This document shows positions 2,355 to 6,072 of a stretch of DNA of 6,072 nt, in pieces. Positions within the stretch are counted from its first letter, which is position 1. Each line of letters opens with the position of its first letter. Origin of the DNA: JAZDEY01 sp043808325 [NCBI: Candidatus Eiseniibacteriota bacterium] (GTDB lineage Bacteria; Arandabacterota; Arandabacteria; Arandabacterales). The DNA lies in contig JAZDEY010000014.1 of the NCBI GenBank assembly GCA_043808325.1, forward strand, positions 1 to 6,072, in the 5' to 3' direction. The translations under genes were made by a program, and so were the position numbers. The notes below the pieces were generated by a model, which made no database searches, was not told where the DNA came from, and saw nothing but the letters and a program-made list of their open reading frames with translations.

Positions 2355-2357
2355 TTA
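2355..2357. repeat. Putative target-site duplication, left copy (TTA)
   Basis: TTA directly abuts the outer edge of the left 12-bp inverted repeat. The same triplet in the same orientation abuts the right repeat at 4326-4328. Three matching bases have a 1 in 64 chance alone, so this supports transposition only together with the inverted repeats. Confidence 0.5.
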
Positions 2358-2369
2358 GGCCATATGTCC
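2358..2369. repeat. Terminal inverted repeat, left end of the DUF1670-pair element
   Basis: GGCCATATGTCC is a perfect inverted match to 4314-4325. The central CATATG is itself palindromic, so the informative part is the asymmetric outer triplets, GGC outside and TCC inside, conserved at both ends. GGTGAGTGG follows inside; the other end has GAGAGTGG a little further in. Confidence 0.65.
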
Positions 2370-2393
2370 GGTGAGTGGTTTTTGATCGCTTTC

Positions 2394-3416
2394 TCATCCT
2401 CTGCTCTCGAGACCTCTTTGAGCGTTTTTCGACTCTTGGAAGCAGCCGGTCTTCGAATCGGCTTCACCAGAGTCTTTACGAGCGACGATCTCACCCTCGG
2501 TTGAACCTGGGAGTCCCCCCTCTTTGAGGACCATCATCATCGAGTTCATAGACTCCGCAGGCAAGGACCTCACAGCCCCGATCTTCTCACGACGTCCCGT
2601 CAGCCACTCCCCATGCTCCTTGCTCATCAGCTCCGGATGATAATGCTCCACGATCACCAAGTATTGAGCTACCGTGCGAGGTGCCTTGCCTGTCACCTGG
2701 CAGATCGTTTCAACGTCGAAGCCCTTCCTCAGAAGTACCTTGATCCGTCTATAGGTCCCAAGGTAGTTGTCAACTGAGTCCAGACCGTGCCCCGTCGCCC
2801 GCGCTATGTCCGGGGGACTCATACCTTCCTCAAACTTACGACAGATGATACCCTTGTGGGTCGGGGAGCTGCCCATGTCAAGTACGTAGCCCTTCAGAGG
2901 AAGCGCCTCGCCTGTCTCTCGCTCGTAGGTCCGGACATACTCGTGTATCTTCATCAACGATCGGTTCATCAACAAGGATAACTCTGCACCAGTAAGAAGA
3001 CCTCCTTGCTCGGCTGCACTCTTCACCAGACGAACAAGCGTCCCCATGCCTCGACGGAGATCCTTTCTCCGGTTATCTTTCGGGTCCCGACCAGGACCTG
3101 CAGCCATCCTTGACTCTATCTCTGACTTTGTTACCAGTGGCAACTGAACCATCTGTACTCCATACGATTCCGCCCGCTTACCCCAACTCACCTTCGCCCC
3201 ATCTCCTGCCTTAGTTGTCGCCCAAAGGATCGTACCCGGTCTCTGATGCGTCGTCTCCGGAAAGAACTCGCGATGCAACTCCATGATCGACTCAACAATC
3301 ATGCGAATCACTCGATGGCTGCCCACTAACTTGAACTCCGTCTCGAGCATATATCCCACTGCTGAGGCAAAGTCCCGACAGCCCACTGTCCTATAGCGAT
3401 CAGGAAGCGTTCTCAT
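2394..3416 (-). CDS. DUF1670-like helix-turn-helix protein, second of the pair
   Basis: The 340-residue protein has an N-terminal alpha/beta region (about 1-110: DRYRTVGCRDFASAVGYML, then REFFPETTHQRPGTILWATT), a basic linker (110-125, with NRRKDLRR) and three helix-turn-helix-like segments: about 137-165 (GGLLTGAELSLLMNRS), 184-222 (SPTHKGII, IARATGHGLDSVDNYL) and 232-257 (DVETICQVTGKAPRTVAQYL). The order matches the upstream protein, so the two look like diverged paralogues. I recognise the general DUF1670 pattern from memory; to my knowledge the family has no established function. A polar tail (about 265-340) has no counterpart in the partner. The ATG at 3416 overlaps the upstream TGA by one base (TGATG), so translation is probably coupled; no separate promoter is seen. 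Cytoplasmic, with no signal or membrane segment. Likely a DNA-binding protein, possibly working with its partner on the element ends; that role is inference. Confidence 0.8.
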   Translation of the reverse strand: MRTLPDRYRTVGCRDFASAVGYMLETEFKLVGSHRVIRMIVESIMELHREFFPETTHQRPGTILWATTKAGDGAKVSWGKRAESYGVQMVQLPLVTKSEIESRMAAGPGRDPKDNRRKDLRRGMGTLVRLVKSAAEQGGLLTGAELSLLMNRSLMKIHEYVRTYERETGEALPLKGYVLDMGSSPTHKGIICRKFEEGMSPPDIARATGHGLDSVDNYLGTYRRIKVLLRKGFDVETICQVTGKAPRTVAQYLVIVEHYHPELMSKEHGEWLTGRREKIGAVRSLPAESMNSMMMVLKEGGLPGSTEGEIVARKDSGEADSKTGCFQESKNAQRGLESRG

Positions 3417-4228
3417 CAGGACCCCCTTTTTCCCCCAACACAGCCACCAAGAACTCGCCGTACCTGGCGCGCTATCTCCTCCATCCGATCCTCATACTGT
3501 GGACTGGCATAATGCTTGCGAAGTCCCAGATACTCACCTGCCAGCCGCGCACTCATCCCCAAAATATAGCCCATCTCCCCAGCCTCTTCCACTCCCCGTT
3601 CCCACAACACCACCACCCGCCCGAAACTCTCCACGTAACGCTTGATCGCACTCGGGCTGTGACGCGCACGTCGTACTATCTCTGAATACGTCATCCCTTG
3701 AAGGTACATCTCAACGATCTTCGCCTTGTGCGACTGACCCCGCCCTATCGCCTTCACCGCTCCTCGTGTCGCTACCCAGTCTCCACCACCCCTTAGCGAT
3801 GCTACATCCCGACGAATCGTACGAACCCCAGTCTGTAAGAGCCGGGCCAGATCCTCCTGCGTTAAGACTCCGCCCTGGTCCACTGCCTCCTCAGCCATCC
3901 GCATGAGCCGAACCCGACGAAGCCTGCTTGCGCCAAACCGCTTCAATATCTCAAGATCCTCCAAACCACCATCCACTGTCACCACTATACCCACTTTCTT
4001 CATCTCACTCAGCGGCTTGCCCGACGGCTCATCTACACTCACTGCCGTCGCTCGCAACTGCCCCTCTCGTATTTCTCCATTCCCTGATAACGGAAATAGC
4101 ACCTGCTGCACCGCCGCCAATACCGCCCGCGACGTAGCAGGTGCTAACTCAAAATCCCGCTCCAACTCGTATAGAAACTGCCGCTCTACTGTCTTCTCGC
4201 TTAGCCGCTCCGCCTCTGTGCGTGCCAT
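3416..4228 (-). CDS. DUF1670-like helix-turn-helix protein, first of the pair
   Basis: The 270-residue protein opens with MARTEAERLSEKTVERQFL, the start style I associate with DUF1670 proteins. A mixed domain (20-100) contains GKPLSEMKKVGIVVTVD. Three helix-turn-helix-like segments follow: 120-147 (GGVLTQEDLARLLQTGVRTI, then RRDVASLR), 165-204 (QSHKAKIVEMYLQGMTYSEI, then HSPSAIKRYVESF) and 211-238 (GYILGMSARLAGEYLGLRKH). No DDE triad, serine-recombinase start, HUH pair or tyrosine-recombinase RHR-Y pattern is evident. The start is set by AGGAGG at 4234-4239, 5 nt before ATG 4228. It is the first gene inside the element, with a weak promoter against the right terminal repeat. The product is probably a cytoplasmic DNA-binding protein. 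Transposition protein, element regulator and unrelated regulator all remain possible. Confidence 0.83.
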   Translation of the reverse strand: MARTEAERLSEKTVERQFLYELERDFELAPATSRAVLAAVQQVLFPLSGNGEIREGQLRATAVSVDEPSGKPLSEMKKVGIVVTVDGGLEDLEILKRFGASRLRRVRLMRMAEEAVDQGGVLTQEDLARLLQTGVRTIRRDVASLRGGGDWVATRGAVKAIGRGQSHKAKIVEMYLQGMTYSEIVRRARHSPSAIKRYVESFGRVVVLWERGVEEAGEMGYILGMSARLAGEYLGLRKHYASPQYEDRMEEIARQVRRVLGGCVGGKRGS

Positions 4229-4274
4229 CGCGCCCTCCTTCTACTTCCGTCCAGATGTGGTCTAATCGCACTAC

Positions 4275-4301
4275 ACTATACAACAACCACACCACTCTCA
4301 A
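4275..4301 (-). promoter_or_regulatory. Weak candidate promoter for the DUF1670 pair, next to the right terminal repeat
   Basis: Minus-strand TTGAGA (4301-4296) and TATAGT (4280-4275) each resemble the sigma70 boxes, but the spacer is only 15 nt. The alternative is TTGAGA with TAGTGT at 17 nt. Transcription would begin close inside the element, as in insertion sequences. The GAGTGGT subterminal repeat overlaps the -35 box, so a protein bound to the end could also regulate the pair (inference). Confidence 0.35.
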
Positions 4302-4313
4302 CGGAAAGTGGGA

Positions 4314-4325
4314 GGACATATGGCC
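4314..4325. repeat. Terminal inverted repeat, right end of the DUF1670-pair element
   Basis: GGACATATGGCC is the exact reverse complement of 2358-2369. Its outer edge touches the TAA stop codon of the FG-GAP gene, read on the minus strand. Confidence 0.65.
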
Positions 4326-4328
4326 TTA
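4326..4328. repeat. Putative target-site duplication, right copy (TTA)
   Basis: TTA here equals the triplet at 2355-2357. On the minus strand it is the TAA stop codon of the FG-GAP gene, so a 3-bp duplication would leave that gene's stop intact. Confidence 0.5.
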
Positions 4329-5870
4329 TCGCACGAGTACGAGTTTGTCCCTAAGAACTTTCCCTGTTGCCTCAAGTGTCACGAAGTAAATACCGCCCGT
4401 GACTTCCTCCCCTCGGGCGTTCTTGCCGTCCCAGAGAAGCGAGTAGTATCCGGCATCACGACGGTCATTGGCGACCTCTCGCACAATCATGCCGCGGACG
4501 TCATGAACCGTGACGAGCACCGGTCCGGCCGCCGGCACGTGGAAGCTTATTTGGACGCCTCCCACGCTCGGATTCGGGATTGCAGCGCACAGGGCAACAT
4601 CGGCAGGGGCCGCACCCAAAGGCCCGGTGACATCGTCAACTGTGGTCTCTCGGGCCTTAAAGGCAGGGTCAGAATCAGTGGCCCGTCTCTCACCCAGAGT
4701 GCGCGCCATGTTCTTCCAGAGACTGATCCTGTGACATCCAGCGGCGTAGCCGTTGGCCGCTACGATGTCCTTGTCACCGTCGCCGTCCACGTCAGCTGCC
4801 TGCGCGGATATTATGTTTGGGCATGCGCTACCAACCAGGTAGCTACCCCATGAACCGGAGAACGGCGTGCCATCGTTCTCCCAGATGAACAAATCGCCCT
4901 TATTGCATCCTGTCATGATGTCGGTATCGCCATCCAGATCAAAATCACCGACTCCCCCAGTAGGTGCAGACACCGATCCGATCACGTTACTCGGCCATGA
5001 TCCCGAGAACGGCGTACCGTCGTTGCGGAAGATACTCTGTGTGTACGATGGCGTGTAGCCGCAGGTGGTCACTATGTCGCGGTATGCGTCTCCGTCGAGG
5101 AAGGCCATCTCGACGTAACCGACCATGCCGCCGCAAGCGGAGCCGACGTAGTTGGACTGCCAGGCGCCGGAGAACGGTGTACCATCGTTCTGCAGGGCAT
5201 AGATGTAGTATTCGTTACCACCGCAGGCAACGTCATCGTCGCCATCATTGTCAAGATCACCGACAGCAAGGCCAGGCCCGAGCGCATATCCTGAGAAGAC
5301 CGTGTTGCTTGTCCAAGCCCCCGAAAATGGCGTGCCGTCATTCTGCCAGACCACCACGTTGCGAGTCTCCCCGCTATATTCGCACCCCAGAGACACGATG
5401 TCGAAGAAGGAATCTCCGTCAAGGTCTGCAACACGTATGGCGACTACCTTGCAGGTGAGCGTGCCCACCTCGTGAGGTGTCCAAGACCATGGCCCTGTCC
5501 TCTCCCAGGCAATTATGGGATAGCTACTCGACACGTCCGTACCGCAGCCAGTTACGATGTCGAGGTCGTTGTCGTGGTCGAGATCGGTTATGCCTATGCT
5601 GCAGACATCGTGCGTTGTTCCCCCGATATAGTGCCGCGGCCAGTGGTTCCAGAAAGGAGTGCCATCGTTTTCCCAGGCTACAAGCTCAAATGCTGCGGAA
5701 GCGTAGCTTCCGGAAATAAGGTCCAAATCGCCATCGCCATCCAGATCGGCAACCTGTATGTTGCGGAGCATGTCGGATAGTACTGCGACTCTGTACTGAG
5801 TGCCTCCGAAATTCATGGATGCAAGCGAAACGCCTGTCGTCAGTGCAATAAATGCAGATGCGAAAAACAC
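4326..5870 (-). CDS. Exported FG-GAP/VCBS seven-blade propeller protein with a C-terminal FlgD-Ig/T9SS-like sorting domain
   Basis: As read from GTG 5870 the protein has 514 residues. Seven calcium-loop motifs of the DxDxDGxxD type occur at 42-50, 96-104, 149-157, 205-213, 257-265, 309-317 and 360-368, each followed by hydrophobic I/V residues as in FG-GAP/VCBS blades. Most blades also carry ENDGTPFSGSW or a close copy. From about 426 (IPNPSVGGVQISF, VHDVRGMIVREV, LLWDGKNARGEEVTGGIYF, KLVLVR) comes the Ig-like C-terminal domain used as a T9SS-type sorting signal in the FCB group. It is complete, so the native end is present. GTG 5870 lacks a Shine-Dalgarno and leaves a signal peptide without basic residues. 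The better start is ATG 5895 with AGGAAG 8 nt upstream: deleting one base of the A-run at 5863-5867 gives MTRAGYTARVFASAF and a normal signal peptide cut near SLA/S. Likely an outer-surface or secreted adhesion-type protein. The DUF1670 element abuts its stop codon. Confidence 0.88.
   Translation of the reverse strand: MFFASAFIALTTGVSLASMNFGGTQYRVAVLSDMLRNIQVADLDGDGDLDLISGSYASAAFELVAWENDGTPFWNHWPRHYIGGTTHDVCSIGITDLDHDNDLDIVTGCGTDVSSSYPIIAWERTGPWSWTPHEVGTLTCKVVAIRVADLDGDSFFDIVSLGCEYSGETRNVVVWQNDGTPFSGAWTSNTVFSGYALGPGLAVGDLDNDGDDDVACGGNEYYIYALQNDGTPFSGAWQSNYVGSACGGMVGYVEMAFLDGDAYRDIVTTCGYTPSYTQSIFRNDGTPFSGSWPSNVIGSVSAPTGGVGDFDLDGDTDIMTGCNKGDLFIWENDGTPFSGSWGSYLVGSACPNIISAQAADVDGDGDKDIVAANGYAAGCHRISLWKNMARTLGERRATDSDPAFKARETTVDDVTGPLGAAPADVALCAAIPNPSVGGVQISFHVPAAGPVLVTVHDVRGMIVREVANDRRDAGYYSLLWDGKNARGEEVTGGIYFVTLEATGKVLRDKLVLVR
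4858..5680 (-). repeat. Intragenic repeats encoding the NDGTPFSG blade motif
   Basis: The segment encoding xNDGTPFSGxW recurs with plus-strand copies starting near 4858, 5005, 5170, 5323 and 5651, at intervals of roughly 150-165 bp for the first four. The blade in the longer gap has a diverged copy (WERTGPWSWTPHEVG). The copies are similar in DNA but not identical. They reflect propeller blade duplication and could recombine to change blade number. Confidence 0.75.
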
Positions 5871-5986: not shown

Positions 5987-6072
5987 ATGAGAAGAGTAGC
6001 ACCGAGTGTGCGGATGGAGCAAGAGTTGTATGCGGGTTTGATAGGTAGTGGCGATCCCATAGGGGAGGCGGC
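5987..6072 (+). CDS. N-terminus of a probable IS256/Mutator-family transposase, cut by the window end
   Basis: ATG 5987 follows GGAGGAGGT (5972-5980) by 6 nt, an excellent ribosome site. The 28 visible codons begin MRRVAPSVRMEQELYAGLIG and continue SGDPIGEA. Starts of the form M-R/K-R/K-V-x-P-S followed by a basic/acidic amphipathic helix are common in IS256-family transposases, and the helix leading to a GEA segment fits the region before their usual Q-x-x-L-E-E box. No catalytic residue of the DDE domain is within view, so assignment rests on this resemblance and the insertion-sequence-like leader. It is the only plus-strand gene and is divergent from the FG-GAP gene. It could be another short-leader protein. 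Confidence 0.45.
   Translation, partial: MRRVAPSVRMEQELYAGLIGSGDPIGEA

Follow-up and report, generated by a model that had tools for sequence, protein, structure and literature searches.

Tn7 enters a single chromosomal site, attTn7, downstream of glmS, by means of several known proteins, and integrative elements that enter the 3′ ends of genes restore the gene end. Among insertion sequences, the IS1202 family is described at the start of its published abstract as inserting at dif sites, with a length of 1.5 kb and ends of 24–26 bp (PMC10132070). The 1968-bp element reported here resembles insertion sequences in its 12-bp inverted ends, in the TAA on both sides of the complete copies from Latescibacterota, in its two tightly packed genes, and in its occurrence at several sites per genome and as relics. 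It differs from them in that it encodes no recognised transposase-family protein, in the near-palindromic ends of the copy studied, and in that this type of element enters stop codons in genes that share one kind of C-terminal domain. It is like the IS1202 family in having one target kind and one orientation, but differs in target, length and ends, and the start of the abstract of that report does not mention DUF1670 (PMC10132070). As with Tn7, insertion occurs just past the end of a conserved gene, which is unharmed, but the element draws on a gene family that offers more than a hundred possible sites. As with 3′-end integrative elements, the gene end stays intact, but no tyrosine or serine integrase is recognised, and the shared sequence is 3 bp only.

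In the window, which is the whole stretch of 6,072 nucleotides analysed, the element occupies positions 2358–4325 of the minus strand, in the same orientation as its host gene. In gene orientation, the 5′ terminal inverted repeat (4314–4325, minus strand) is GGCCATATGTCC and the 3′ terminal inverted repeat (2358–2369, assigned to the plus strand) is GGACATATGGCC; on the plus strand, GGCCATATGTCC is read at 2358–2369 and its exact reverse complement at 4314–4325. The repeats match at 12 of 12 positions, or at 13 when the flanking A/T is counted. Two main frames lie between them on the minus strand, ORF A (3416–4228, 270 aa, with several HTH segments) and ORF B (2394–3416, 340 aa), and the start of B overlaps the stop of A by one base. 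Both are DUF1670 proteins well over the curated cut-off of PF07900 (25 bits), A with 169.5 bits (E 9e-50) and B with 132 bits (E 2.7e-38). Smaller frames on the opposite strand of the element are taken as chance, and neither Rfam families nor tRNA genes were found in the window. At the window end (5987–6072), a frame of 28 residues begins behind GGAGG and looks like the start of a transposase, with no Pfam match.

An earlier note on this DNA had described a 1968-bp unit with perfect 12-bp inverted ends, flanking TTA repeats and two tightly packed, overlapping DUF1670 genes, and all of these features are borne out. It had also judged that inverted ends beside the gene pair exceed chance: when the 150-bp stretches on either side of the gene pair were dinucleotide-shuffled, 1 of 3000 pairs contained matching inverted 12-mers. 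It is the placement of the 12-mers that carries weight, because shuffled windows contain on average about 2.3 chance inverted 12-mer pairs at any position, and the reality of the ends is settled by the recurrence of the design in relatives. The subterminal GAGTGGT of the same description is present near both ends in the window (16 and 29 bases in) but nowhere in the elements of the two relatives with complete copies, bin70 and G007, and has been dropped as a feature of the element.

What that description lacked is the nature of the target. The right-hand TTA (4326–4328) is, on the minus strand, the TAA stop codon of a gene at 4326–5870 whose 514-aa product has FG-GAP repeats and ends in a FlgD_ig sorting-type domain (residues 447–502; type IX-like, hereafter CTD). 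The insertion site is therefore the stop codon of a member of a repeated sorting-domain gene family. The same TAA would be one copy of a presumed 3-bp target duplication, the second copy being the TAA on the far side (2355–2357, minus strand), to which a TAA is equivalently placed in bin70 and G007.

A scan of genome contigs gave a single relative, Candidatus Latescibacterota bin70 (CP070677.1), 74% identical in A. Its element (L001, 5904–7770) has the ends GGACATTTGTCC and GGACAAATGTCC, which are inverted repeats at 12 of 12 positions, starts directly after a TAA, the stop codon of a gene for an M1 peptidase that has a FlgD_ig tail, and is followed by another TAA. A third complete copy, in the genome G007, has the ends GGCCACCTGACC and GGTCAGATGGCC (an inverted match of 11/12) with TAA on both sides, and lies downstream of a GH32 gene with a FlgD_ig tail. 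The three complete copies, one per genome, are thus found in three different CTD genes (FG-GAP, M1 peptidase and GH32), and all three have the flanking TAA pair that a short target duplication would leave. The 3′ flanks of the elements in the window, L001 and L010 read TAATAGTCG, TAAGAGTCG and TAAGAGTAA. Because these three Latescibacterota flanks share TAANAGT, the element could end beyond the TAA, and, judging from the flanks, the NAGT may either reflect a preferred target or belong to the element. A search with A through plasmids, phages and viral contigs gave no relative. In 80 genomes of Latescibacterota, PF07900 is present in three, namely bin70, G007 and G004; the last has a 5.1-kb contig (C947) in which two single DUF1670 genes and one double-DUF1670 gene of 530 aa adjoin a CHC2/Toprim primase-like gene (L011, 640–5101 for the whole group), a larger kind of DUF1670 cluster.

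The 80 genomes were also searched with a 5′-end pattern consisting of TAA, the 12-mer and ten inner bases, with up to 2 mismatches. The pattern matched 15 times, in 10 genomes; reversed, it matched 5 times, by count alone. Fourteen of the 15 lie exactly at a TAA, bin70 and G007 included, and one (G035) lies away from CTD genes. An in-frame CTD tail, for example ...ETKRMVLIK-stop, precedes 12 of the 14, although the tail in G050 has stops further up; the other two, both in G051, follow the last seven to nine CTD residues only. Together with the window and G353, a genome outside the 80-genome set, these make 16 TAA-type sites, all with a 12-mer related to the 5′ terminal repeat at the equivalent place. 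FlgD_ig scores above the Pfam cut-off in all 13 host genes searched for it, and the frames of the other three of the 16 are disrupted or incomplete.

All 16 sites read AAATAA (12) or CGATAA (4), in which TAA was imposed by the pattern for 12 sites and the preceding A was not. At 42 CTD ends without an element, which come largely from other genomes than the 16 occupied ones, the stop is TAG in 23, TAA in 10 and TGA in 9, and 17 of 41 K/R codons have A as their last base, as against 16 of 16 at the occupied ends. Because the pattern demanded TAA and the 5′ end, the 12 further sites are a biased sample in stop type, orientation and minimum relic length. Since bin70 has 134 FlgD_ig matches in 4.3 Mb, an insertion exactly at such a stop would occur by chance about 3 times in 100,000 per insertion.

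The 12 further sites are all relics or cut by contig ends within the DNA fetched, with no complete copy among them, and the seven genomes that contain them have no PF07900 match. In one relic (L137), roughly the first 35 codons of A remain, interrupted by a stop. Several copies per genome are seen as such relic or contig-cut 5′ ends, five in G051, on five contigs, and two in G039. In G039, two different CTD genes are each followed by 107 identical element bases up to both contig ends; the two genes have their last 31 coding bases in common and differ further up.

CTD tails are repeated sequence, and the copies might have spread by homologous recombination or gene conversion of tails carrying a downstream unit. 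The 31 coding bases common to the G039 sites fit such an exchange, as does a gene in G050 that is 95% identical over 1912 bp to an occupied gene of G051: it has no element and a TAG stop, and identity between the orthologues is lost at the stop codon, beyond which the G050 DNA is unrelated. However, the complete copies have inverted ends with a TAA beyond each, the more upstream CTD sequences in G039 differ while 107 element bases are identical, and the host genes of the window, bin70 and G007 copies encode different kinds of protein, so that we regard spread through the tails as very improbable. The G050 locus and an orthologue of the bin70 M1 gene in G080 (71% identity, no element, TAG stop) are unoccupied orthologues, not clean empty sites. 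The comparison of relatives proposed in the earlier note has given shared ends and several sites, but no clean empty site; the closest unoccupied orthologue is that in G050.

In wider searches, PF07900 was found in 20 genomes in all (genome handles up to G481), which belong to at least three bacterial phylum groups; searches of two classes and two phyla, with 1 to 6 genomes each, gave no new DUF1670 locus. Among 14 control genomes, the archaeon Methanosarcina acetivorans alone has a PF07900 match. The copy in G353 follows a FlgD_ig gene through the same 5′ junction, and its remainder is cut by the contig end. All four copies from Latescibacterota or G353 that were found through their DUF1670 genes have one kind of target and one orientation. 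Other copies are arranged differently. Those in G137 and G277, the latter decayed, abut a CTD gene end in the opposite orientation, with TAG replacing TAA (out of frame in G277), and those in G216, G397 and G401 have related 12-mers but lie away from CTD gene ends. A clear 3-bp duplication was not seen in these three or in the G253 copy, of which only 57 flanking bases are available. Outside Latescibacterota, the flanks are mostly TA[AG] facing inward at both ends, or different, and no 3-bp duplication was seen. A 2-bp TA duplication, which fits some of these ends, fails in the three complete Latescibacterota copies and was rejected.

The G253 group (L035, 58–4011, and L064) has one 12-mer after a promoter-like box, TATAATAG, and a second about 3.9 kb beyond it; some 2 kb of the DNA between the two contains no frames other than ones of about 100 to 120 codons. 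In four genomes, solo DUF1670 genes on the minus strand (L060, 2890–3705; L061, 1347–2165; L040, 6060–6899; L065, 2396–2827) have similar surroundings, and terminal repeats were not noticed beside them. The gene next to the one in L060 encodes a chemotaxis-receptor-type signalling protein (MCPsignal), and flagellar or RpoN-type genes occur in the vicinity, judged by a reading of the frames. A solo gene is probably a domesticated member of the family. These loci bear on the idea that A and B are an immobile, fixed regulatory pair whose 12-mers serve as operators or terminators: the promoter-like box of the G253 group and the similar surroundings of the solo genes would agree with it, but different host genes, several sites per genome, relics and TAA at both ends of the complete copies would not, and we consider it barely credible. 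The earlier note had named DUF1670 genes without terminal repeats in fixed synteny as evidence against an insertion element; such genes were found only in the separate solo branch. An insertion element built on a DUF1670 pair, as the note had proposed, is by far the best reading, because the whole design recurs at different CTD genes, several 5′ ends occur per genome, and 107 bases are identical in G039.

A and B are 27% identical to each other over 134 residues. Among the window, bin70 and G007, pN/pS is 0.16–0.36 for both, with synonymous sites near saturation, and both are under purifying selection. In a tree of 23 proteins, including three of the four solo genes, B forms one lineage (99/98) and A the other side, in which the solo genes lie. 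For A and B alike, the proteins of the window, bin70 and G007 form one group, followed by G353 and G253, although the forks of G353 are weakly supported (80/53 and 84/73) and the branch of the G401 B protein is long. The broadly matching host order in two separate lineages points to an old pair that has been inherited together.

The pair is probably the mobility machinery, although no catalytic motif or recombinase fold has been recognised in it. Like the earlier note, searches of Pfam, NCBIfam, PHROGs and PDB sequences and with Foldseek recognised no recombinase motif, though they were weak tests for the N-terminal half; for known transposases (DDE, HUH, serine and tyrosine), they gave nothing beyond weak, mostly HTH-type matches, the N-terminal models being poor. 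PDB-sequence profile searches returned HTH regulators, designed proteins, chance matches and a 'CAP REPEAT' chain (8vd6), which whole-sequence A matched at 4.9e-9 and whole-sequence B at 4.2e-7. The weak PHROGs matches are mostly transcription regulators and replication proteins; one is to a transposase (phrog_1157, E 0.07) and covers an HTH stretch of A (residues 170–202). In PADLOC, the DUF1670 proteins weakly matched WYL, methyltransferase and CARF entries, at 6e-4 or worse. The comparison with nuclease and integrase folds that the earlier note had called for was made with the model of A; the models of both proteins (pLDDT 56 for A and 47.5 for B) are poor outside the C-terminal HTH part. 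Foldseek found no match for model A at E 0.001 or better, and VIA-align matched its C-terminal part mainly to HTH regulators and its poorly predicted N-terminal part to unrelated proteins, with Z up to 6.4. Because the N-terminal models are poor, an active site may lie hidden in A or B.

The element may also be mobile and directed to stop codons with A and B as DNA-binding target selectors or regulators only, a recombinase encoded elsewhere acting in trans. The mainly HTH-type similarities of A and B and the lack of an invariant acidic triad in the alignments A2 and A3 would suit this arrangement; the earlier note had likewise considered a non-autonomous unit moved in trans. We nevertheless regard it as unlikely: the complete copies in three genomes carry nothing else sizeable besides A and B, both of which are under selection; A and B are paired in other clades as well; no partner gene recurs beside them, except for the primase-like gene at one other DUF1670 cluster (L011); and the poorly modelled N-terminal part could conceal an active site. 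That A and B constitute a two-protein recombinase of a new class, which reads the end of a sorting-domain gene, inserts in its TAA and restores the stop by duplication, is a tentative proposal to which we give somewhat less than even odds.

The leader of the element, from its 5′ end through the ATG of A (4226–4325, minus strand), potentially forms a strong RNA hairpin (z −5.07). Against shuffled sequences, the 100-base leaders reach z −5.1 to −7.5 in six of seven copies and −2.8 in the seventh, and the seven share a consensus fold of an outer and an inner helix. In the outer helix, GTCCTC at and beside the terminal repeat pairs with the region of the ribosome-binding site, AAGGAGG. Two-sided changes affect ten of 25 pairs, a count that none of 500 shuffles reached, the seven related sequences being few. 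These ten pairs are confined to the inner helix; in the outer helix, which would hide the ribosome-binding site, changes are one-sided only. From this fold, we infer that the leader may keep read-through transcripts of the host gene from starting A efficiently. IS10 and IS50 have a comparable guard against read-through translation.

An RNA guide to the target was considered as well and has no support. The longest stretch shared between leader and target is 7 bases in the window (equalled in 87 of 200 shuffles), 7 in bin70 (92 of 200) and 8 in G007 (33 of 200); between tail and target it is 5 (199 of 200), 6 (135 of 200) and 8 bases (17 of 200), in the same order. The leaders of the window and L001 contain GTGCGAT and TTCGATA, respectively, and in each case the host gene ends in the same bases, before or at its stop codon; this sharing may be chance, because shuffles reach equal length so often.

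We propose, with a probability of roughly 0.72, that the element represents a family of site-directed insertion elements whose DUF1670 pair binds the element ends and CTD DNA and inserts at the TAA, and whose leader guards translation. The sequences themselves show the ends, the TAA flanks of the complete copies, the recurrence at many CTD stops, several sites per genome together with relics, the strongly folded leader and the long co-inheritance of A and B. In the proposed pathway, A and B would act as mobility enzymes that bind the near-palindromic 12-bp ends, recognise the 3′-terminal DNA of CTD genes, and bring about insertion at a TAA stop in an AAA-TAA or CGA-TAA context. The TAA would belong to the target, not to the element, and its duplication on insertion would leave the host gene with its full frame and stop. 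A read-through transcript from the host gene would then fold the leader, with the ribosome-binding site of A paired with the tip of the element, and A and B would be poorly translated until transcription begins inside the element.

The literature searched, which lacked most subscription journals and preprints, contained no mention of DUF1670 or PF07900. Within the parts of that literature available, the element was not found under insertion sequences of Latescibacteria, sorting domains together with transposons, or stop-codon target specificity, and the family was thus found described nowhere in what was searched. If the proposed reading is true, it would provide the first function for DUF1670, a family annotated only as of unknown function, and would add a family of insertion elements without a recognised transposase. 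Entry at the stop codons of a many-site gene family, with the stop given back, would be a safe genomic niche for a mobile element, and natural insertion just past a chosen coding end may be of practical interest for adding sequence behind genes while leaving them unbroken.
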